A stretch of 62,894 bases of DNA from contig VXMP01000021.1 in the NCBI GenBank assembly GCA_009841075.1, positions 11,603-74,496 of the forward strand, in the 5' to 3' direction. This DNA is from Acidimicrobiia bacterium. GTDB taxonomy: Bacteria; Actinomycetota; Acidimicrobiia; Spongiisociales; Spongiisociaceae. Position numbers and translations under genes: made by a program. Below the pieces are notes generated by a model. That model had not been told where the DNA came from, did not search any database, and worked only from the letters and a program-made list of their open reading frames with translations. Shown here piece after piece: positions 31,845-48,920 of this stretch. Each line of letters opens with the position of its first letter. Positions within the stretch are counted from its first letter, which is position 1.

Positions 31845-32042
31845 CTACTGTGACTTGTCGGACGGAGTGGCGAGCCTCTCGAGCCGAGCGGCGTTGATGT
31901 AGTCGCGCAATACGATCTTGCCGGTATCCACGTCACCGGACAGAAGACACTCGACCCCCTCCTTCAACAACCCTTCTCGGAAGTCTTGGTCATGCCGGGC
32001 ACGGGCTTGTACTGTTGCCCTGAAGTCTTTGGTTAGAGCCAT
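31845..32042 (-). pseudogene. truncated addiction-module antitoxin
   Basis: About 65 residues: MALTKDFRATVQARARHDQ, then FREGLLKEGVECLLSGD and KIVLRDYINA. This matches the N-terminal dimerisation region of HigA-like putative addiction-module antidotes. Such proteins continue with a helix-turn-helix of 30 or more residues; here the frame ends soon after the INA motif, so the DNA-binding part is missing. No toxin gene lies beside it. Either a remnant or a short orphan. It is convergent with the nitrilase gene. Confidence 0.6.
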
Positions 32043-32169
32043 GGTCATTACCATACCCACCCAGGTAGCACCAATTTCTGGTGGATTTTGAGGAGGGCTA
32101 AGACGAAGTGATCAAAGACTCCACATCACAATTGAACCGGAGAATCCGTATCGCCGGCGGTTTCTGCTG

Positions 32170-35100
32170 ATGGGTGTTCTACCCGATTTTGTGGTCTTTG
32201 ATCTGGAGACCAATGCCGACTCACCGGACCGGACTCAACACCAGATCATCCAGATCGGGGCGGTGCGTGCCGGACCGGAGGGGGTGGTTGATCGCTTTGA
32301 GACGCTGGTTCGACCCACCAGAAAAGTGGCCGACCATATCACCGAGCTCACCGGACTCGAGGACGCGGACCTGGCCCGTGCTCCCAAGCTCCGAGAGGCT
32401 CTTGGGGATTTCTTCGCCTGGTTGAGGGCCCAAAATGTGGACTCTCCGCTTCCGCTTATCGCCCACAACGGGTTCGGCTACGACTTCGTGGTTTTGGACG
32501 CTGCCGCGGACGCCGTCGGGGTACGGATTCCGGACGGACCACGTCTGGACTCCCTGGAGCCGGCCCACCTGGTCTATGCCCGGGCGGGTGCCGAGATCAA
32601 GGGTGCCGACGGCCGCGTCCCCCCGCCAGGTCGCTCGGTCGATGACTTGGCCAAGCGGTATGGGTTAATCGACCTGGATCGGGAGCGGCATGACGCCCTG
32701 GAAGATTCCGAGCTGACCTATAAGATCGTGATGAGGCTGCTGGAAAAGCTTTCGGCACCCACCGCCGCCCGTCAACTGCAATGCCGGATACTCGGCCAGG
32801 CCGGTCATCCTTGGGCGGAGTTTGTCCCCGTCCCCGACCACCGGCCGGAACTCAATTCGGTGGTCCCCACTCCCCCACCCGATCCTCCGGTCCGAGACCT
32901 GACCGGGCGTTTAGACGCCGACCAGGTGGTGGGGAAATTCCGAGAGGGCGGGGCGTTGATGACCGACGGCCGCACCCCCCGACCCCAGCAGATCGAGATG
33001 GCCGGTCAGGTCATTAAGGCGCTGAACCAGCCGGATTCCCGTACCCTTATCGAGGCACCGACCGGTACCGGAAAGACCCTCGCCTACCTGGTTCCCGCCA
33101 TAGAAATAGCTCAGGCATCGGGCAGGAAGGCGTTGATAACCCCCCACACCCGGGTACTGCAGGACCAGATTCTCGGCTCCTTGGAAGACCTGGAGTCGGT
33201 GTTGCCACCCTTCCGAAAGGTGGTGGTCAAGGGCAAGCAGAACTACCTCAGCCTGAACGCCCTGGAAGCGGAGCTGATTAGCTGGTCGGAAGAGGACCAG
33301 ACCGGACCGGACCAACAAAAAGTGGGAATGGCCCTGGCGATCCTGTGCGGCTGGGTGGCGGAAACCCCCAGCGGGGACTGGGCGGACCTTCGCACTACCG
33401 CGTTGGATAGCCGGCTGGAAGCGCTACGTTTCTTCCGGTGGAAGCTACGGGTGGAGTTTCCACCCGGTCCGTCCCGCACCGAACTGGACGATCTCGATTT
33501 CTATCGTCGGGCTCGCCAGGGTCTCAAAGAGGCCGATGTAGCCGTGCTCAACCATGCCCTGCTGGCGACCGACCCCGGCCTCGGCTCGGATTTCAACCTG
33601 ATCATCGACGAGGCCCACGACCTGGAGGATTCGGCGACCGCGGCAGCTACCAAAGCCACCGGCAGCCAACAGGTAGCGTGGATTTGTAGGGCGATCTGGG
33701 ATGAACGTTCCCGCCGCGGGCTGGTAGCCAGGCTGGCCTCGGCCACCGGCTTCGGTCTAGCTGACGAAAAGCTAACCGAGATCCGGTCTCAGACCCAACG
33801 GTTCGAAACGGCGATCCGGCAGTTCGGTGAGCAGCTTGTGGAGTATGTTCGGGACCGAACCGGCACCCTTCAGGAAGATGCCGCCCGCTATGGCACTTCC
33901 TATCGGATCCGCCGGGGAGTCGATACCGGTAACCCCCGCTACCAACCGGTCATAGAGGCTTGCCACAATCTTAAGCACCGACGCGGCAAGCTGGTAGACG
34001 CCCTGGACGACTTCACCCTTCCGGACCAGCTGCAGGGGCGCTATCGGCGGGATGATCTGGAAGACGAGCTGTACCGACTAAACCGAGATCTGTCCCACAC
34101 CGTCCAACTAATAGACGCGGTGGTATGGGCAGCGGAGCAACTGGCCCTCTTCGACGAAGAAGAGGATTTCGCCGAGATGTCGGATTGGATCAACATCGCC
34201 GAAATCTCCTACCAGGTCCGGCCGACCAGGACACCTTCCGGTGATGACGAACCACCCCCGAACGGCACCTGGGAGTGGGGGATGCGCCGAGTCCCCCTAT
34301 CGGTGACCGGGATGCTGGCCGGACTGTGGCTGCAAAGCCACGCCACCATCCTCACCTCCGCCACCCTCCGTAGCGGCGACAGCTTCGACTATCTAATCAA
34401 ACGGCTCGGGGTAGGTGACGCCCAAACCAAGCTGCTGGATTCACCGTTCGAACGCCTATCCGAACAGCACCTGCTGATTCTCACCGACTATCTGCCCGCT
34501 CCTCGGGGAAGCCTGATGGACCGTTTCACCGAGGTCGAATCCGGCGAAATCCCCCGGTTATGCGTGGTGGCAGGCGGCGGGGCGATGGCATTGATGACCG
34601 CTCGGATCCGGCTCGAACACGTCCGTGACCATGCCCGGCCTCACCTCACCAAACTAGGGCTGAAACTGCTCGCTCAAGGGGATTCTTCTTCCCGCGCCCT
34701 GGTGGAGCAGATGAAACGGGAGCCATCCTCTTCCCTGCTCGGACTGCGCTCGTTCTGGGAGGGGGTGGACATTCCCGGCGAGGCCCTGCGGTTGCTGATA
34801 ATCGAGAAGGTCCCGTTCGATGCGATGGGCGACCCGGTTCCGGCCGCCCGCATGGACCTGATCGAAAGACAGGGAGAGGATCCGTTCGCCCGCTACATGG
34901 TCCCGAGAGCCGCCATCGCCTTCGCCCAGGGGGTGGGACGCCTGATCCGAACCGCGGAGGATCGGGGGGTAACCGTGGTCCTCGACAACCGGCTCCGCCG
35001 TCCGGTCGCCTATCGAGACGTTCTCCTGGATCATCTGTCCGGGCCCCCTCAAAAGGTGCATGGCAACTCACCGGATCAGACCTACCAGGAGATAGCCCGG

Positions 35101-37311
35101 CATCTGGGCATCCAATTCAACGAGGAGTTGAGGCAGCGGGTCGAACAGATACCCGCCCCGACCAGGCTTTCTTCGGGCACCCTCGAGGTGGACTCGGATG
35201 TCGAGTTGACCGATGAGGTAATCGCCGAGCATCTGGAGACGGCCCGGGAATGGCTCGGCTTCAAAGAGTGGCGGCCCTTCCAGCAGGAGATCATGAAAAG
35301 CTTTATCAGGGGTGAGGACGTGGTGGCGGTTCTCCCCACCGGATCGGGGAAGTCGGTCACCTTCCAGGTCCCGGCCCTGCTCTCGCCGGGGGTGACCTTG
35401 GTGATCTCGCCCCTGGTGGCGCTGATGAGGGATCAGGTCGACAACCTGCGCGCCCAGGGAATCAGCGAAGCCGCCGCCATCTACTCGGGTATCGGACAGG
35501 CCGAGCAGCGGGACATCCTCCGAGCGGCCGCGGCCGGCCATATCAAGCTCCTCTATGTCAGTCCGGAACGGTTGTGGAGTCCGGCCTTTCGGTCATGGCT
35601 GAGCAAGGTTGATGTGCAGCGGATCGCTATCGACGAAGCCCATTGCATTTCGATGTGGGGCCACTCTTTTCGGCCCGAATACGCCCTGATTCCCGAGGCG
35701 GTCGCCGAGGCTACCTCCTCCCGACGGCTTCCCACCTTGGCCGCCACCGCCACCGCCACCCCCCGGGTCCTGGAGGACGTGGGCAGGCTGCTTGAACTGC
35801 CGGATCCCACCATAATGGTCGGCTCGGCCAACCGGCCCGAGATCCGCTACTACGTGGAGCGATGCACCAAACTTTCCGACCGTGACCTTCGGGTGGTGCA
35901 GGTCTTGGAGGCCTTCCGCCGCCGGAGCGCCATCGTCTACGTGCCGACCCGCAACGACACCGGACGGCTGGCCTCGCTGCTCCGCATGTACGGACATCGG
36001 GTGCGTCCCTATAACGGTGCCATGGAGAGTAACGAACGCGGCCACACCGAAGACGCCTTCCGCCATGGTGAGATCGATGTGGTGGTGGCCACCAAGGCCT
36101 TCGGGCTGGGCATCGACAAGCCCGACATCGCCCTGATCGTGCACTTGGAGATGCCCGCCTCGATCGAGGAGTACCTGCAGGAAACCGGCCGGGCCGCCCG
36201 GGGGGCGAATGACGGCACCGGACCGGAGTACGGGACTGCCGTGCTGATGGTCACCCCGAATGACTGCCGTATTCATAAGCATTTCGTCAAGAACGCCGTG
36301 CCTGATGAAGCAGAAATCCATTCGGCGTTCAACGAGCTGGAAGCAGGACTGAACTACATTGACCCATGGGAGGGGACCGAATCGAACTTCGGGTCAGGCG
36401 GGTTCTACGGGGAGAAGGATCACACCAGGTCACTGGCCCTGCACTACCTGCATCGGGTGGGCGCGGTGAGGCGACAACCAGACTTCGTTATGAGAGGCCG
36501 GGTGAACATAACCTCCGACACCTGGGAACGATTCGATAACTACCGGCGCTCTAATCCCCTTAATGGTCAGGCCGAACGCATCCTCAGGTACGCCGAAGAA
36601 GTGGGCGGAGATTACGGATGGAGCTCCTGGAGGCACGCCCTCGGTTTGAGTCCGGTCGAGATCGAACGGGTGCTTTTCGAACTACAGAGGGAGGACATCT
36701 GCGACTTTACCGCCTGGAGGTTTGGATGGGTGTTCGAGAAAACGGAGGAGGCCGATTTGGATGGTCTGGCTCTGCGCTCCCTTTTGGAGGGACAGCAGGA
36801 AATTACCGCCCGCCGAGCCGATCAGGCCCGGGCACTGGCCCACAATCGGCCCTCCTGCCGACGCCGTGAGATGCTCCTTTATCTCGACGACAGCCAGGTG
36901 GACTTCAACCGGTGTGGGGGTTGTGACGCCTGCACCCCCGATCTACCCCGACCCTGGCAGGATTCTCACATCACCCAAGACCAGATCCGCCAGGTCGTTG
37001 AGGAGGAGGCTGACAAGACCATCCTGATCCTGGTCGATTCAGTGGAAGGGGGCCAATACTCCCGCAACAATCTGGTTCGAACCTTGCGAGGCCTCGCCAC
37101 CCAGGGGCCCTACTCCCTGCCGGATCGGTTGAGACTTAATCAATGCTTCGAGCAGCTCTCGATGATGACGGCCGACCAGGTCGAGGAACGGATCGCCCAA
37201 CTGATAGCAGACGGAACGCTGGAGTCGGTCTGCCCCGAGGGCCGCAGCTACGAGACCCTTCGGCTGACCGAGGAGGGCCGTACCCTGGTAAAAGGACGCT
37301 ACACCCGCTGA
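32170..37311 (+). CDS. exonuclease-DinG-RecQ triple fusion helicase
   Basis: A 1713-residue protein combining three machines. Residues about 1-195 are a DEDDh 3'-5' exonuclease (FDLETN, HNGFGYDF, RHDALEDSELT). About 270-940 are a DinG/XPD-like helicase (Walker A APTGTGKT near 296, DEAH as IIDEAHDLED), but the iron-sulfur cysteines of DinG are absent: the usual site reads KGKQNYLSLN. About 1020-1600 are a RecQ helicase (LPTGSGKS near 1055, IDEAHCISMWGHSFRPEY) with its zinc module (Cys...RCGGCDAC near 1585), and a winged-helix-like tail ends the protein. A UvrD-like gene follows after 24 bp. DNA repair or anti-phage defence are both plausible. Confidence 0.9.
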   Translation: MGVLPDFVVFDLETNADSPDRTQHQIIQIGAVRAGPEGVVDRFETLVRPTRKVADHITELTGLEDADLARAPKLREALGDFFAWLRAQNVDSPLPLIAHNGFGYDFVVLDAAADAVGVRIPDGPRLDSLEPAHLVYARAGAEIKGADGRVPPPGRSVDDLAKRYGLIDLDRERHDALEDSELTYKIVMRLLEKLSAPTAARQLQCRILGQAGHPWAEFVPVPDHRPELNSVVPTPPPDPPVRDLTGRLDADQVVGKFREGGALMTDGRTPRPQQIEMAGQVIKALNQPDSRTLIEAPTGTGKTLAYLVPAIEIAQASGRKALITPHTRVLQDQILGSLEDLESVLPPFRKVVVKGKQNYLSLNALEAELISWSEEDQTGPDQQKVGMALAILCGWVAETPSGDWADLRTTALDSRLEALRFFRWKLRVEFPPGPSRTELDDLDFYRRARQGLKEADVAVLNHALLATDPGLGSDFNLIIDEAHDLEDSATAAATKATGSQQVAWICRAIWDERSRRGLVARLASATGFGLADEKLTEIRSQTQRFETAIRQFGEQLVEYVRDRTGTLQEDAARYGTSYRIRRGVDTGNPRYQPVIEACHNLKHRRGKLVDALDDFTLPDQLQGRYRRDDLEDELYRLNRDLSHTVQLIDAVVWAAEQLALFDEEEDFAEMSDWINIAEISYQVRPTRTPSGDDEPPPNGTWEWGMRRVPLSVTGMLAGLWLQSHATILTSATLRSGDSFDYLIKRLGVGDAQTKLLDSPFERLSEQHLLILTDYLPAPRGSLMDRFTEVESGEIPRLCVVAGGGAMALMTARIRLEHVRDHARPHLTKLGLKLLAQGDSSSRALVEQMKREPSSSLLGLRSFWEGVDIPGEALRLLIIEKVPFDAMGDPVPAARMDLIERQGEDPFARYMVPRAAIAFAQGVGRLIRTAEDRGVTVVLDNRLRRPVAYRDVLLDHLSGPPQKVHGNSPDQTYQEIARHLGIQFNEELRQRVEQIPAPTRLSSGTLEVDSDVELTDEVIAEHLETAREWLGFKEWRPFQQEIMKSFIRGEDVVAVLPTGSGKSVTFQVPALLSPGVTLVISPLVALMRDQVDNLRAQGISEAAAIYSGIGQAEQRDILRAAAAGHIKLLYVSPERLWSPAFRSWLSKVDVQRIAIDEAHCISMWGHSFRPEYALIPEAVAEATSSRRLPTLAATATATPRVLEDVGRLLELPDPTIMVGSANRPEIRYYVERCTKLSDRDLRVVQVLEAFRRRSAIVYVPTRNDTGRLASLLRMYGHRVRPYNGAMESNERGHTEDAFRHGEIDVVVATKAFGLGIDKPDIALIVHLEMPASIEEYLQETGRAARGANDGTGPEYGTAVLMVTPNDCRIHKHFVKNAVPDEAEIHSAFNELEAGLNYIDPWEGTESNFGSGGFYGEKDHTRSLALHYLHRVGAVRRQPDFVMRGRVNITSDTWERFDNYRRSNPLNGQAERILRYAEEVGGDYGWSSWRHALGLSPVEIERVLFELQREDICDFTAWRFGWVFEKTEEADLDGLALRSLLEGQQEITARRADQARALAHNRPSCRRREMLLYLDDSQVDFNRCGGCDACTPDLPRPWQDSHITQDQIRQVVEEEADKTILILVDSVEGGQYSRNNLVRTLRGLATQGPYSLPDRLRLNQCFEQLSMMTADQVEERIAQLIADGTLESVCPEGRSYETLRLTEEGRTLVKGRYTR

Positions 37312-37335
37312 TCTTATCGGTATGATTTAACGCCG

Positions 37336-39171
37336 ATGGCGTTCCTGATCCCCAAGAACATCCCCACCCGATCAGGGGTACCCAACCGGCTCCGTCAGGT
37401 GGCCCGATCGCTGCGCGACTTCATGCCGGATGAAGCCACGGTGTGGTTGAGGAACACCGGCCGAGAAGAACCCCCCTATCTGCTGGTACTGGATCCTTCC
37501 GCCGGAATAGCCCTGATGGAAACCCCGGTGATCCGTCAATCCCAAAGCAAGCGGACCTGGTTCGGAAAAGGCCGTCCGGCCGATCAACAAAAGCTGTTGA
37601 TACGAAAAGACGTGGCCGACCTGGCCAGAAACCTGGAGTCCAAAATCGACCCAAACCGGATACCTTCCCTGCCCGTCCGGCATGTAGTGGCCCTTCCCGG
37701 TCACGACGAACCACCACCGGAGGTCGAGGGTTTGGGAAATGGGGTCGACCTGTTGTTAAGATCCGACCTGGCCGACCGTGGTCTACCGCTCGCCATGCGG
37801 AGAATCTTCGGCCTCCGGAGAGAAGGATCGTTAAACGACCGTGAGCAGCAGCTGGTCCGGGCGGCCATCAATCCCCGGGTGGTGATCAACCTGAAGCTGG
37901 AAGGGTCGGAAGCCGAACAAGCGGTGAAGATCCCGCTCTTCCATGAACCGGAGATTGCCCCCGAGGACATCATCCGGGTGATGGATCGCAAACAGGAACG
38001 CCTGGCGGAGCACATGGGATGGGGCTATCGGATGCTGCGGGGCGTGGCGGGCAGCGGAAAGACCCTGGTCCTTACCCATCGGGCCCGTTTTCTGCGGGAG
38101 CGATTTCCCAACTATCGGATCCTGGTGCTGTGCTACAACCGTGTCCTGGCCAACGGCCTGCGCGGCATGATCGGGAAAAGTAACGGCACCAAGGTAATCC
38201 ACATCGACAGCCTGGCCTTTGAGCTGGCGGGCAAGAAACCCTCCGGCAACACCTTTCCCGATTTTCCCCGGTTGAGACTAAAAGCGATCGAGGCTGCCGA
38301 ACGGCTGCCTGATTCCCGCCGTTATGACGTGGTATTGGTGGATGAGGCGCAGGACTTCGACCATGGTGGGCTGGGGCTCGCCTACCACATGCTGAAGAAG
38401 AACCGCCGTAACCTGAGTGCTAGCCAACAGGATTTGACCTCCGCCGGTGCCGGGCACCTGGTCTTGGCGCTGGACTCGGCCCAGAACCTCTATCAGCGGC
38501 GCAGCATGACCTGGAATCCGCCCAACATCACCGCCCAAGGCCGCACCGAGATCTTCCGCAGCAACTATCGCAACACCCGCCAGATTCTCGACCTGGCCTG
38601 GAAGTTCCTGGCCGGAAAAGACTTCGGCACCTCCAAACGAGCCAACGCCGAGGACGAAGGCGCGTTGATCCCACCCGAAGCCGGATACCGGGACGGCCCT
38701 CCGCCCAAGGTGCTGGCCTGCGGGGATCTTCGTGGGGAGGCGAGGACTATCGCTCGGGAGGTAAATCGGCTCCTCAAGGAGGGAGTCCAAATCGGGGATA
38801 TCGCCATTTTGTACGGCACCCGTGATCTACAGGAGAAGCTATATCACGAGCTAGCTCGACGGCAGGGGCTCCCCTACTTCCACATCCAGCACAAGGACAA
38901 GAAGGAACCTCAAGACCGCCGCGACACCGCCCTCCAGAAAAACTACCATCTCCGTGTTTCCACCATCCAAGGAATCAAAGGCCTGGAGTTCAGCCGGGTG
39001 CTGATCGGAGGCGTCAACCAGGCCCGAGCCCATGATATCCCCGAAGAAGAACAGGTTGAAGCCGTAAAGCGCCTGGTCTATGTGGGTATGACCAGAGCAA
39101 TGGACGAGCTGATGATCACCTATTCCGGCCCCGGTAAAATCGGCCCAGCCCTGACCGAGGCGTCTACCTAA
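37336..39171 (+). CDS. UvrD/Rep-like superfamily 1 helicase with N-terminal unknown domain
   Basis: 611 residues. The first 200 form an unrecognised, possibly nuclease-related (NERD-like) domain. Then Walker A GVAGSGKTLVL (about 236), VLVDEAQDF (about 333), the SF1 motif IQGIKGLEF (about 541) and VYVGMTRAMDEL (about 580) define a UvrD/Rep-type helicase of short form. It begins 24 bp after the exonuclease-DinG-RecQ gene. The gap contains TATGAT, a possible -10 box, so it may also have its own leaderless promoter. The pair looks like one functional unit. Confidence 0.85.
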   Translation: MAFLIPKNIPTRSGVPNRLRQVARSLRDFMPDEATVWLRNTGREEPPYLLVLDPSAGIALMETPVIRQSQSKRTWFGKGRPADQQKLLIRKDVADLARNLESKIDPNRIPSLPVRHVVALPGHDEPPPEVEGLGNGVDLLLRSDLADRGLPLAMRRIFGLRREGSLNDREQQLVRAAINPRVVINLKLEGSEAEQAVKIPLFHEPEIAPEDIIRVMDRKQERLAEHMGWGYRMLRGVAGSGKTLVLTHRARFLRERFPNYRILVLCYNRVLANGLRGMIGKSNGTKVIHIDSLAFELAGKKPSGNTFPDFPRLRLKAIEAAERLPDSRRYDVVLVDEAQDFDHGGLGLAYHMLKKNRRNLSASQQDLTSAGAGHLVLALDSAQNLYQRRSMTWNPPNITAQGRTEIFRSNYRNTRQILDLAWKFLAGKDFGTSKRANAEDEGALIPPEAGYRDGPPPKVLACGDLRGEARTIAREVNRLLKEGVQIGDIAILYGTRDLQEKLYHELARRQGLPYFHIQHKDKKEPQDRRDTALQKNYHLRVSTIQGIKGLEFSRVLIGGVNQARAHDIPEEEQVEAVKRLVYVGMTRAMDELMITYSGPGKIGPALTEAST

Positions 39172-39184
39172 TCCGCTTTGAACC

Positions 39185-39823
39185 CTATCCTGGGCGAGGA
39201 CCGATTATTGCCCATCTTCCCGCACTCGTCCCATCTTCCCGCACTCGTCCCATCTTCCCGCACTGGGCCCAGCGGAAACAGGTGACCAGGTGGTCGTTCA
39301 CCATTCCGGTGGCCTGCATGAAGGCGTAACAAATAGTGGGGCCGACGAAGCGGAACCCGCGCCGCCTAAGCTCCTTGCTCATCGCCTGGGATATAGGTGT
39401 TGACGCAGGCAGATTCTCCAATCTTCGCCAGGTGTTGTGGATGGTCTTGCCGCCGGTGAAGCTCCAAAGGAAATCTCCGAGCCCACCTCCGGACTCCCGC
39501 ATTTCCAGCCAGGCCCGGGCGTTACCGATGGCAGCTTGGATCTTGAGTCGATTCCGCACTATTCCTTCGTCGGTCAGGAGCTCGGCGATCTTCTCTTCGT
39601 CGTAGCCGACCATGCGCTCGGGATCGAATCCGTCGAACGCCCGCCGGTAGCCAGGGCGCTTTTTGAGGATCGTGTACCAGCTCAAACCGGCTTGGGCACC
39701 TTCCAGCACCAACATTTCGAAGAGTGGGCGATCGTCATGGACCGGAACCCCCCACTCTTCGTCGTGATAGGAGATGTAAAGGGGATCGTCGTTGACCCAG
39801 GTGCAGCGTACCTTTTCCATCAA
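39185..39823 (-). CDS. tag: DNA-3-methyladenine glycosylase I
   Basis: A 212-residue Tag protein, which excises 3-methyladenine from alkylated DNA. Zinc ligands are present: Cys near residue 7 (RCTWVN), His in YHDEEWG, and the C-terminal His/Cys pair in NDHLVTCFRW. The catalytic region EGAQAGLSWYTILKKRPGYRRAFDGFD is intact. The family usually ends near residue 190. Here about 20 extra residues are encoded by a 19-bp tandem repeat, read in three successive frames, so the tail is probably non-functional. It is convergent with the UvrD-like gene. Confidence 0.93.
   Translation of the reverse strand: MMEKVRCTWVNDDPLYISYHDEEWGVPVHDDRPLFEMLVLEGAQAGLSWYTILKKRPGYRRAFDGFDPERMVGYDEEKIAELLTDEGIVRNRLKIQAAIGNARAWLEMRESGGGLGDFLWSFTGGKTIHNTWRRLENLPASTPISQAMSKELRRRGFRFVGPTICYAFMQATGMVNDHLVTCFRWAQCGKMGRVREDGTSAGRWAIIGPRPG
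39211..39264. repeat. 2.8 copies of a 19-bp tandem repeat in the tag 3' end
   Basis: The unit CCCATCTTCCCGCACTCGT occurs at 39211-39229 and 39230-39248, with a partial third copy at 39249-39264. Copies are identical. Because 19 is not a multiple of three, each copy is read in a different frame of tag. Copy-number change would alter the C-terminal length and the stop position. Confidence 0.95.
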
Positions 39824-45496: not shown

Positions 45497-45614
45497 CCCT
45501 CGCAACACTTGAAACCACTAATTGTGGGCGGATTTGGTTGACCCTCTCAAAATTTTTTGAAATACATCTTGTTATCGGGGTTTTTTGTCCTACACGACTT
45601 ATAAAATTGTTCCT

Positions 45615-48600
45615 ATGAATAAAACAGATCACACCGAAACCGGCCTCACGGATCATTCCGGGCTTTACGAAACCATCAACTTCCACGGCGAAGACCCCAT
45701 TCGCGCCGCCGAAGGCAACCCCCAAGGAGGCCGGACCAAAGCCGGGGCAATCAGTAATTCGTGGGTAGGCTGGGGATCACCCGACCAGGATAGGCCCTTG
45801 CCCCAACCATCTATCAACCCTGATGAGCATCTGGCAATGTGCCGTAAGTACGCCCGGCGCATATTGGACCGTTACCAAGTAGGGGAAAAGGAGGCCGAAA
45901 CCCGTTCCGCCATAAGAGACTTCCTGGTTTCCACCGGGATGGTAAATGCTTCTGAGGTGAGGGAGGAATACCCACCTTCTAAAAGCGCCGGTGGACAAGC
46001 CGTGGACCTGGTGGCCGGAGAGTCCTTTTTTGAGATCAAGGTAAGGATCAGCGCCCTCGACGGCTTCCAGCCGCACCCCGACCATGTGGGCCAGCTGGAC
46101 GGGTATTTGAAGGAATCAGAGCTGGAAGGGCGGGTTCGTACCGGAATACTTACCGACGGCAAGTATTGGTTGCTCCGCAAACCGGGTATGAGTGGCATCA
46201 GGACGGAGGCACCCTACGGATTCGAGTTGGAAAACCCGAATCAAGGATTGGCTCTGTTCGAATGGCTTCGTGAACAAATTGTTACTTCGCCCGACCCTTA
46301 CCCACCTACCTCGGATGAAATCCTTCGCCATTTCGGCCCGAACACCATCCCCTATCAAACAGACATCGACGGACTAACCGAAGTCTACAAGACCTACGCC
46401 GACGATCCGACAGTGAAGGTAAAGCGTCGGCTATGGGAAGACCTTCTCAAAGCCGCGTTAGGTGAGATAGAGGACACCCCCGAAGGCCTGGACCGTCTGT
46501 TCGTGCGTCATACCTACCTCGGAGCAACGATCAGCATGATCCTCCAGGCCTCCTTCGGAATACCGATAGAAGAATTGGCGGCAAATAACCCGACCGACCT
46601 TTTGGCAGGGAGGCAATTCCGTCAATCCACCCTGGTGGTGGGGGTTATCGAATCCGATTTTTTCGGATGGCCCGGCGAATCGGAAGAGGGCAGGCTTTGG
46701 TTGAGACGGCTTGCGGACCGAGTAGCGGGGTTTGATTGGGAAAACCCGCCCGGAGATGTGGCGTCGGTGCTTTACCAAACGGTGATCCCGCCGGAAGAGC
46801 GCGCCAAGTTGGGTGAGTACTACACCCCCGACTGGCTGGCCAGAGAAATGGTACGCGAGCTGGTGGATGATCCCCTTGGCCAAACCGTCCTCGACCCGGC
46901 CTGCGGTTCAGGGGCGTTTCTCGCTCAAGCGATCTCCCATTTCACTGAGTCGGCGCGTACGGCCCAAATCGAGGCTCCTCAAGCATTGGACAAGCTCACC
47001 GGTGCGGTAATAGGAATCGATATACACCCGGCGGCGGTGCATCTCGCCCGAGCCGCCTGGGTGCTGGCGGCCAAGTCTCTGATCCAAGAGGCCCGCGAGC
47101 AAGGCCATAGTGGGTCGATTACCGTACCCGTATATTTGGGCGACTCCTTGCAGCTCCTGTATCGCAGCGACGACCTGTTCGCAGAACACTCTGTGACCAT
47201 CGACGTTGGTAACGAATCAAACACCCAATTGGTTTTCCCACGACGAATCGTCGAGCAAGCCGACCGGTTCGACCAGCTGATGACCAAGATAGCCGACACA
47301 GTAGAACACGGCTACGACCCCACCGCCGCACTAGGCAACATCACCGACCCGTCCGAGCGAGACACCCTGGTCGACACCATCCAAGCCATGCAGCACCTGC
47401 ACTCAGAAGGTCGTAACCATATTTGGGCTTACTACACCCGCAACCTGGTCCGCCCGGTGGCTATAGCCAACCGCAAGGTGGACGTGATCCTGGGTAATCC
47501 ACCCTGGATCGCCTACAACAAGACAGTGAGCACCCTCCGTAGCGAATTGAGAAGGTTAAGCCAAGACCAGTACGGAATTTGGAAGGGCGGACATTACGCG
47601 ACTCATCAGGATGTGGCCGGCCTCTTTTACGCTCGCAGCGTGGACCTCTATCTGAAACCGGATGGGGTGATTGGCATGGTCATGCCCCATAACACCCTTA
47701 TGGGCGGCCAATACGAAAAATGGCGAACCGGGCGATGGAAAGGGCCCGGTCAGACAATTCGGGTCGACTTTTCCGATAGAAATTGGTGGGATCTGGAACC
47801 ACTGGAGCCCAACACCTTTTTCCCCATCCCGGCCTGCGTTGTATTCGCCCGATTTGAAGGCTACTCCGGCGATAGGGCCAGTGCGCTCTCTCAAAAGGTA
47901 ACGCGCTGGACCGGACCCGCCGGCTCGGATGACATCTACCGATTCACAATAACTTTGCCACTCCTCTCTGATAAGGAGTCCCCCTATAAGAAACTTTCTC
48001 GTCAAGGTGCCACCATCACCCCTAGGCGACTGTTCTTTGTTGACGAAGTTCCCAACCCCACTATTCTCCCTGCCCCCGAAGTTATCACGGTCAGACCCCG
48101 CTACAGCCCCTACGACAGGCCACCTTGGAACACCCTTGACCTAACCACAATAACCAACCGGCCCTACGAAAGATCACACCTCTTCGACGTCTACCTGGGC
48201 GAATCCGTCGCCCCTTACATTTTGTTAGAACCCCTTCAAGCATTATTGCCGGTGAAACAGATCAAATACACCATCCCCGCCAAGGACGACGGGGTGGGAG
48301 GAATAGATATGGTGGATCTGAAATCCGCTATGCGGAGAAGGTGGGAAGCCATCAGCCATATCTGGGACGAAAACAAAACCGCCGCCAACCGGTTGAACCT
48401 GTTGCAACAGTTGGACTACTACGGCAAACTGTCCGCCCAACTGGAATGGATGCGCCAACCCGGCGGCCGGCCCATCCGGATCGTTTATACCACCTCCGGC
48501 TTCCCAACGGCGGCAATGGTCGAAAACGAGGCGGCGGTCATAGACACAAGCCTTTATTGGATCAAATGCACAGATAATTATGAAGGCTATTATTTATTAA

Positions 48601-48920
48601 GTATAATAAACAGCAAAATTTTATTGGAGCTTGTCAAATGGCTAATGCCCAAAGGGCAGTTTGGGGCTCGACACCTACACAAGCACCTCTGGAAACTACC
48701 CATCCCAAAATACAGCCCTGACCACCCTCTCCACCGCCAGATTTCAGAAGCGGGGCGGGCCGCAGCGGTTGGGGTTGCTCAGCAGATGACCCGACTCCGT
48801 GAAGAAAGGGAGCAGGTTTCGATGACCATCGCCCGCCAGGAAATACGTGGATGGCTGACCACTTCCCGTGAAGGCCTGACCGTGGAAGAGCTGGTCGAGG
48901 AACTCTTAGTCGCCGGGTAG
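45615..48920 (+). CDS. single-chain restriction-modification-like nuclease/N6-adenine methyltransferase
   Basis: About 1101 residues. The N-terminal part (about 70-190) has a PD-(D/E)xK-like nuclease core with VDLVAG and FFEIKV. The central methyltransferase has motif I VLDPACGSGAFLAQA and motif IV ILGNPPWIAY (N6-adenine type); the C-terminal part (about 750-1090) looks like target recognition. This is the layout of type IIG or BREX PglX-like enzymes. No BREX partners are present, so a stand-alone enzyme is more likely. ATG 45615 is preferred to the TTG at 45585. The upstream region and the recognition part have AT-rich patches (near 48590), consistent with transfer. Confidence 0.85.
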   Translation: MNKTDHTETGLTDHSGLYETINFHGEDPIRAAEGNPQGGRTKAGAISNSWVGWGSPDQDRPLPQPSINPDEHLAMCRKYARRILDRYQVGEKEAETRSAIRDFLVSTGMVNASEVREEYPPSKSAGGQAVDLVAGESFFEIKVRISALDGFQPHPDHVGQLDGYLKESELEGRVRTGILTDGKYWLLRKPGMSGIRTEAPYGFELENPNQGLALFEWLREQIVTSPDPYPPTSDEILRHFGPNTIPYQTDIDGLTEVYKTYADDPTVKVKRRLWEDLLKAALGEIEDTPEGLDRLFVRHTYLGATISMILQASFGIPIEELAANNPTDLLAGRQFRQSTLVVGVIESDFFGWPGESEEGRLWLRRLADRVAGFDWENPPGDVASVLYQTVIPPEERAKLGEYYTPDWLAREMVRELVDDPLGQTVLDPACGSGAFLAQAISHFTESARTAQIEAPQALDKLTGAVIGIDIHPAAVHLARAAWVLAAKSLIQEAREQGHSGSITVPVYLGDSLQLLYRSDDLFAEHSVTIDVGNESNTQLVFPRRIVEQADRFDQLMTKIADTVEHGYDPTAALGNITDPSERDTLVDTIQAMQHLHSEGRNHIWAYYTRNLVRPVAIANRKVDVILGNPPWIAYNKTVSTLRSELRRLSQDQYGIWKGGHYATHQDVAGLFYARSVDLYLKPDGVIGMVMPHNTLMGGQYEKWRTGRWKGPGQTIRVDFSDRNWWDLEPLEPNTFFPIPACVVFARFEGYSGDRASALSQKVTRWTGPAGSDDIYRFTITLPLLSDKESPYKKLSRQGATITPRRLFFVDEVPNPTILPAPEVITVRPRYSPYDRPPWNTLDLTTITNRPYERSHLFDVYLGESVAPYILLEPLQALLPVKQIKYTIPAKDDGVGGIDMVDLKSAMRRRWEAISHIWDENKTAANRLNLLQQLDYYGKLSAQLEWMRQPGGRPIRIVYTTSGFPTAAMVENEAAVIDTSLYWIKCTDNYEGYYLLSIINSKILLELVKWLMPKGQFGARHLHKHLWKLPIPKYSPDHPLHRQISEAGRAAAVGVAQQMTRLREEREQVSMTIARQEIRGWLTTSREGLTVEELVEELLVAG

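Follow-up and report, generated by a model that had tools for sequence, protein, structure and literature searches.

What purpose is served by a protein in which an exonuclease and two helicases of different families are joined in a single chain, and by the helicase gene that follows it directly? The question is raised by a locus of an Acidimicrobiia bacterium (2.3 Mb assembly GCA_009841075.1, 96% completeness), in which gene A encodes a fusion of a DEDDh exonuclease, a DinG-like helicase and a RecQ helicase, and gene B encodes a UvrD-like helicase. Both genes lie in a stretch of 62,894 nucleotides (contig VXMP01000021.1, positions 11,603 to 74,496 of the forward strand), referred to throughout as the window. 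The pair was found to be real, coherent and mobile, and it is probably functional; we infer, at a probability of roughly one half, that it is an anti-phage or anti-plasmid nuclease-helicase module.

Architecture and active sites of the pair

The genes and their parts, in window coordinates, are as follows (SF1 and SF2, helicase superfamilies 1 and 2; aa, amino acids; Fe-S, iron-sulfur).

32170-37311, plus strand: gene A, fusion of a DEDDh exonuclease, a DinG-like helicase and a RecQ helicase with zinc module, 1713 aa (open reading frame, Pfam, NCBIfam, active sites)
32191-32727, plus strand: A residues 8-186, DEDDh 3'-5' exonuclease (RNase_T), D11, E13, D105, H174 and D179 intact
32974-35031, plus strand: A residues 269-954, DinG-like SF2 helicase, Walker A K302, DEAH 480-483, no Fe-S cysteine set
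35272-36201, plus strand: A residues 1035-1344, RecQ helicase core, Walker A K1061, DEAH 1155-1158
36790-36936, plus strand: A residues 1541-1589, RecQ zinc-binding module (C1563, C1582, C1585, C1588)
37015-37299, plus strand: A residues 1616-1710, weak RQC (winged-helix) match under the Pfam cut-off
37312-37335, plus strand: gap of 24 nt between the stop of A and the start of B
37336-39171, plus strand: gene B, compact SF1A UvrD-like helicase with an N-terminal pseudo-NERD domain, 611 aa (open reading frame, Pfam, predicted structure)
37336-37890, plus strand: B residues 1-185, NERD-like PD-(D/E)XK fold, catalytic Asp (Y48) and Lys (P64) replaced (hhalign 98.6%, residue counts, fold)
37990-39129, plus strand: B residues 219-598, UvrD-type motor core (K242, D336, E337, R412, R587)

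Gene A starts at the ATG at 32170 and extends for 1713 codons. Pfam assigned RNase_T to residues 8-186, DinG-type Helicase_C_2 to 796-954, DEAD to 1035-1203 and Helicase_C to 1244-1344; by Pfam and NCBIfam together, the DinG-type helicase runs to about residue 954 and the RecQ core begins at about residue 1024. RecQ_Zn_bind was matched at 1541-1589 with 25.3 bits (cut-off 25), and RQC at 1616-1710 with 20.3 bits, below its cut-off of 23. The RecQ part was placed in the RecQ family by its TIGR00614 (recQ_fam) score of 311.5 against a cut-off of 219.8 and by its zinc cysteines. The score to TIGR01407 (ExoDinG), 322.5 bits, is under the curated NCBIfam cut-off of 547.7, and the N-terminal part is therefore named an ExoDinG-like module and not filed as ExoDinG. 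Among solved structures, the RecQ part was best matched by a RecQ helicase (1oyw) and the DinG part by the DinG proteins 8zef and 6fwr.

The DEDDh residues, both Walker A lysines, both DEAH boxes, the motif VI arginines and the four zinc cysteines were identical in all 18 intact Acidimicrobiia copies, counted from 22 copies after omission of four that are broken or partial (L056, L216, L066, L068). Since the insert between motifs I and II of the DinG part holds just 0-3 cysteines in these copies, the DinG part has no Fe-S site. The composition given for this chain in the preliminary description (1713 residues, DEDDh exonuclease, DinG-like helicase without Fe-S cysteines, RecQ with zinc module) was thus confirmed by the family models and the 18 of 18 residue counts. 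Upstream of A, a pattern search for SOS control in nine stretches found no LexA-like box, and no sigma-70-type promoter was found; in this phylum neither negative is very telling.

Gene B starts at the ATG at 37336, has 611 codons and was matched by UvrD_C and UvrD-helicase in Pfam. An AlphaFold2 model built from 19 sequences had a mean predicted local distance difference test (pLDDT) score of 78.9, and its residues 177-611 matched UvrD (4c2t_B) with Z 32.6 and a root-mean-square deviation (rmsd) of 3.2 over 371 aligned residues; UvrD and Schlafen helicases were among the matches listed by the structure comparison. Most of the 1B/2B insertions appear to be gone, because the core of B has about 430 residues against about 645 in UvrD chains. 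The N-terminal 190 residues, folded alone, gave a pLDDT of 79.7 and had PD-(D/E)XK nucleases as best structural matches (rmsd 3.6-4.1 over the best matches): Can2 8bao_A with Z 8.8, rmsd 3.8 and 130 aligned residues, and EndoMS, McrC and N.BspD6I with Z 7-7.7, all of these Z values lying close to the informative limit. Profile comparison is the firmer ground for the NERD assignment; against the NERD domains of six NERD-helicases, hhalign gave a probability of 98.6 and E 6.5e-16 over 179 columns.

The NERD Asp position is Y, H or F and the Lys position is P, L or A in 19 of 19 B sequences (18 of the 22 pair copies plus L067; L052, L063, L068 and L069 omitted), and E is retained in the Glu column by 13 of 19. 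With the catalytic Asp and Lys lost, the N-terminus of B looks like a nuclease-dead NERD domain ahead of a complete SF1 motor. The spacing of 24 bp and the UvrD/Rep-like helicase noted earlier both stood, and the N-terminal domain then described as unknown is NERD-like. In the pair as a whole, the exonuclease and the ATPase sites of all three motors (two SF2, one SF1) are kept.

Distribution and linkage of the two genes

A and B lie on the same strand, 24 nt apart in the source genome; the gap was measured in 21 of 22 copies. Among the 395 genomes of the class, A was matched at E<=1e-100 in 16, of which 12 carry the RecQ part (G311 as a contig-end fragment and G332 frame-broken), and the remaining four, all of one genus, carry an ExoDinG of ~1000 aa without RecQ. 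B was matched at E<=1e-30 in 15 genomes, namely the 12 fusion genomes, G371 (remnants of A and B, 66 residues of the former vs 228 of the latter), G322 (a fragment on a 3.9-kb contig) and G061 (a divergent B-like gene with no A nearby). B was therefore present in 12 of 12 fusion genomes versus 3 of 383 others, with a Fisher value of 1.8e-20 that is overstated because the genomes are related. At E<=1e-90 in 396 genomes of the phylum, a sample that overlaps that of the class, only the source genome and G647 were matched by A. Co-occurrence, which had been put forward as a check on the pair, also held gene by gene: B stood directly behind A in 13 of 13 copies found through A, the 14th (G647) being an A fragment that reaches the contig end.

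With the source genome counted, 5 of the 10 genus members carry the full pair; in the wider family it is present in G010 and G011 and, as two copies, in G013. Scanning of named genomes with B yielded nine more pairs, titled Acidimicrobiia, Acidimicrobiaceae, Candidatus Poriferisocius or 'bacterium'. In total, 22 distinct copies were counted, with records present in two collections counted once (L059/L054, L062/L216, L068/L203). Ratios of nonsynonymous to synonymous substitution (dN/dS) of 0.17-0.27 in 12 comparisons show purifying selection on both genes where intact and, with the 22 distinct copies, argue that the pair is more than a chance arrangement. The data support A and B as one conserved unit, patchily distributed and horizontally exchanged.

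B-like genes of at most 34% identity without A were found in an Ectothiorhodospiraceae bin (L067), in cyanobacteria and on E. coli plasmids. In L067 (337-4860), a gap of 3 nt separates the B-like gene from the gene ahead of it, an AAA_11/AAA_12 helicase that has a topoisomerase-type zinc ribbon and MkoA as best PADLOC match, giving an alternative partner for a B-type helicase.

Exchange, loss and decay

The pair turns over between very close relatives. G001, G004 and G007 have rpoB genes that are 99-100% identical, and of these G001 carries one variant of the pair, G004 another and G007 none; the A proteins of G001 and G004 are 49% identical despite 99% rpoB identity. The G004 variant is instead 84% (A, 1214 shared codons) and 87% (B) identical to the second copy in G013, a member of another genus (rpoB 87%). 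Contamination was ruled out as the source of this variant, since the dehydrogenase that flanks it on its contig is a gene of this genus (90% identity to G001 and G007, 81-85% to six congeners, 71% to G013). On an rpoB tree of 14 family genomes, presence of the pair changed at least 5 times.

In G002, a 7.4 kb insert with A and B separates a DEAD-box helicase gene from the gene that follows, where G006, G007 and G008 have an empty site of 85-86 bp, and the G004 cassette lies between 496-bp direct repeats (98% identity) that overlap the end of a dctP gene. Frameshifts or deletions interrupt A in three of the 22 copies (L056, L216, L066), for which sequencing error is possible. A and B are swapped and lost as a unit, and copies decay to relics.

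Relatives in Deinococcota and elsewhere

Searching plasmids with A returned 345 records, none covering 80% of A. The top plasmid proteins, of which six were opened, have 1650-1760 aa, come from Thermus, Meiothermus, Allomeiothermus and Deinococcus, and are annotated 'RecQ family ATP-dependent DNA helicase'. Like A, they have the order RNase_T, DinG, RecQ and zinc module (Pfam on two) with catalytic residues kept in 6 of 6; unlike A, all six examined carry C-x63..68-C-x3-C-x5-C in the DinG part, four cysteines that could serve an Fe-S cluster. The five Thermaceae fusions differ further in being followed not by B but by three conserved genes, for which no Pfam family scored above cut-off in those scanned; in L219, L265, L266, L267 and L268 the products have about 250-327, 157-188 and 502-526 aa. 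The Deinococcus plasmid fusion has a UvrD-like gene before it and an 886-aa unknown gene after it. Genes of cas or cmr type are also present in two of the six opened regions.

Trees grouped the Acidimicrobiia fusions with support in the Shimodaira-Hasegawa-like approximate likelihood ratio test (SH-aLRT) of 98 for the RecQ part and 54 for the DinG part; the DinG tree used 34 of 36 rows, L056 and L223 (<561 aa) being left out. A common origin with the Deinococcota fusions was neither shown nor rejected by the approximately unbiased (AU) test (p-AU 0.078 and 0.175 in two trees). ExoDinG genes without RecQ share a common gene neighbourhood in L210, L211, L213 and L217 (genus g34), and G281 shows such a gene in each of two identical stretches of 20 kb, which may be a duplication made in assembly; active sites of ExoDinG-only genes were tabulated from 2 of 5 loci.

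Comparison with known systems

Many PADLOC models match modules of A and B, through shared motor domains only. ExoDinG proteins such as S. aureus DinG (SaDinG) likewise have an N-terminal DEDDh exonuclease and a DinG-like helicase without an Fe-S cluster; A goes beyond them in having a complete RecQ, zinc module included, and in its invariable UvrD-like partner. The accessible text of PMC12345164 reports 3'-5' exonuclease and 5'-3' helicase activity for SaDinG. Hna, according to the accessible text of PMC13381803, is an anti-phage protein of 845 aa that unites a DinG-like helicase and an ssDNA (single-stranded DNA) exonuclease, with a C-terminal PD-(D/E)XK nuclease. A resembles it in coupling a DinG-like SF2 helicase without Fe-S to a 3'-5' ssDNA exonuclease, but the nuclease of A is an N-terminal DEDDh domain, its C-terminus is RecQ and two genes are involved, so that the pair was not classed as Hna.

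GajA of Gabija is an OLD-type ATPase-nuclease. Like the A-B pair, GajA-GajB is a two-gene unit of a nuclease protein and a UvrD-like helicase (nuclease paired with helicase in the accessible text of PMC12407980). No GajA-type gene lies beside B, the preceding gene being A in 22 copies, and B matched GajB models weakly (best 59 bits). The best PADLOC match of B was C3a187 (150.5 bits over 166-595), one of the NERD-UvrD helicases that, together with E. coli and cyanobacterial plasmid proteins, have a NERD-like domain before an SF1 core as B does; the six compared retain the NERD Asp and Lys that B lacks, and those on plasmids have no A beside them. In G176 (L215, 13811-15532), the back-to-back neighbour of the A-B pair is another, divergent NERD-UvrD gene whose NERD residues are intact. 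Against DpdF of the Dpd system, A scored 219.5 bits, through the RecQ part alone, below the cut-off of 550. The accessible text of a DinG review (PMC11981726) does not mention RecQ, and neither an Exo-DinG-RecQ fusion nor the A-B pair is described in the titles and abstracts of the open-access PMC literature searched.

RecQ, DinG and end-processing genes elsewhere in the hosts

Canonical recQ and dinG genes outside the fusion, a further check raised in the preliminary description, were found in part: RecQ scored above the family cut-off in G000, G002 and G007 of the ten congeners, and no second strong DinG was present in any genome of the genus. Among the five congeners without the fusion, a DinG substitute was absent in three and weak partial matches were present in the other two. 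RecQ and DinG are not core in this genus. PDDEXK_1 genes occur in 15 of 15 family genomes, mostly as two neighbouring frames of ~1000-1200 aa, a size that we take to match AdnAB and for which they are called AdnAB-like here. Because these genes co-exist with the pair, the pair adds to a core end-processing machine and does not replace it.

Neighbouring genes

In the window, the pair is flanked by genes for a carbon-nitrogen hydrolase, a 3-methyladenine glycosylase (TagI) adjoining B, an ADP-ribosylglycohydrolase and a DUF4143 ATPase, and a type IIG-like restriction-methyltransferase lies 6 kb off (45585-48920; 213 bits to a PADLOC IIG model). The last three had been named beforehand, the methyltransferase as a nuclease-methylase, and are real; an 'antitoxin relic' reported at 31845-32060 on the minus strand had weak unrelated matches only and was not confirmed. 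A 19-bp unit is present in three head-to-tail copies at 39211-39271, within the 3' part of the TagI-like gene. Neighbours of other copies include an amidohydrolase, dehydrogenases, transporters, UvrA, an IS110-type transposase and a Fic protein, and one further type of flank holds GmrSD, HipA and a macro-domain protein.

Two other helicase loci were seen in the genus. On contig C2 of the source genome (L250, 4803-15326, minus strand), an operon encodes a UvrD-like protein of 763 aa, a DruE-like protein of 1721 aa and a DpdE-like protein of 954 aa, the last with 813 bits to a DpdE model; it is likely a separate defence locus of the host. In G002 (L251, 6010-11457), a RecQ-like and a UvrD-like helicase are fused in a protein of 1815 aa, another joining of the same two motor types.

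Proposed function

RecQ and UvrD translocate 3'-5', and RecBCD and AdnAB are SF1 machines with a RecB-type nuclease, with which the pair would share the combination of opposite-polarity motors and a nuclease. The union of a nuclease with motors of either polarity in one chain suggests a RecBCD-like engine assembled from SF2 modules. A would unite two motors, the DinG part moving 5'-3' and the RecQ part 3'-5', with an ssDNA exonuclease of 3'-5' polarity. Placed on opposite strands, these motors could advance in a common direction, in the manner of RecB and RecD, and the exonuclease would degrade the strand with the 3' end. The role suggested for B, a minimal UvrD whose DNA-binding domain is putatively nuclease-dead, is to enter at DNA ends, gaps or forks and pass the substrate to A. 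Unwinding and degradation would then reach invading DNA, linear or replicating, before it circularises or replicates, and self DNA may be spared through the host AdnAB-like machine or through inhibition of the kind put forward for Gabija and Hna. A regulatory switch may exist by analogy with SaDinG and Hna, both inhibited by ATP (PMC12345164 and PMC13381803, accessible text), and with the release of Hna from inhibition by the phage single-stranded DNA-binding protein (SSB; PMC13381803).

The linkage of A and B, their fast turnover, the selection on both genes, the separate AdnAB-like genes for end resection, the Hna and Gabija precedents and the plasmid relatives would all fit a role in defence. 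Several results weigh on the other side. The genes flanking the pair are mostly metabolic, and PADLOC families matched at E<=1e-10 (families, not proteins, being counted) numbered 60 for 130 flanking proteins and 48 for a control set in which 114 of 130 listed proteins were used, alike in kind and in number of families, which argues against a strong defence-island signal. Of the candidate DNA-processing or defence system proposed beforehand, the conserved, exchanged two-gene unit with intact active sites therefore stands, and its defence-island setting gained no clear support. All 56 viral-contig loci with a match to A fell inside residues 181-986, none being a fusion, and none of 37 phage records searched covered 80% of A; as these collections yielded no pair, a phage-borne system was rejected. 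The pair also occupies one common region in G001, G002 and G005, as an old resident would, and S. aureus Exo-DinG helps to repair mitomycin C damage (accessible text of PMC12345164).

This last result also favours an accessory DNA-repair module for interstrand crosslinks, blocked 3' ends or stalled forks, gained and lost because its use depends on the niche, in which ExoDinG would produce and shorten 3' tails and fork unwinding would fall to RecQ and B. One genus of the order keeps a RecQ-less ExoDinG as a resident gene with flanks in common, and TagI adjoins B in the window, with a homologue ~2-4 kb behind B in L065, L066 and L071; the fetched flanks of the remaining copies hold no TagI homologue, however, and very fast turnover at 99-100% rpoB identity with swapping of divergent variants is unusual for repair genes. 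We regard such a repair role as possible, on the improbable side, and defence as the likelier of the two inferences, although repair fits nearly as well. It is unlikely that the pair serves a mobile element and not the host, in plasmid or integrative element maintenance or the processing of incoming ssDNA: relatives do lie on Thermaceae and Deinococcus plasmids and direct repeats surround the G004 cassette, but the G002 insert contains A and B and no integrase or replication gene, and three copies are on contigs of at least 2 Mb (G011, G331, G176). Housekeeping RecQ/DinG repair, joined by a chance fusion and syntenic in the clade, was rejected as very improbable; a sole RecQ/DinG with clade-wide synteny, the refuting case named in the preliminary description, is not what the genomes show. 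The fusion is the sole RecQ above the family cut-off and the sole DinG in G001, G004 and G005, yet half of the genus lacks it, positions differ and empty sites exist; as four of the five fusion-less congeners also lack RecQ above cut-off, neither the fusion nor RecQ is essential.

For the defence role, a fuller version can be offered tentatively and with more doubt than the role itself. The pair may be an undescribed anti-invader machine, a RecBCD-like dual-polarity SF2 engine with a nuclease-dead NERD-UvrD loader, traded between actinobacteria and present on Thermus and Deinococcus plasmids as an Fe-S version with other partners, Exo-DinG-RecQ being the core effector of several immune systems. 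If so, opposite-polarity unwinding and degradation, familiar from SF1 complexes of the RecBCD type, would have been built a second time, from SF2 modules and in a single polypeptide, within a compact pair of two genes and 7 kb, and ExoDinG would gain an immune context.

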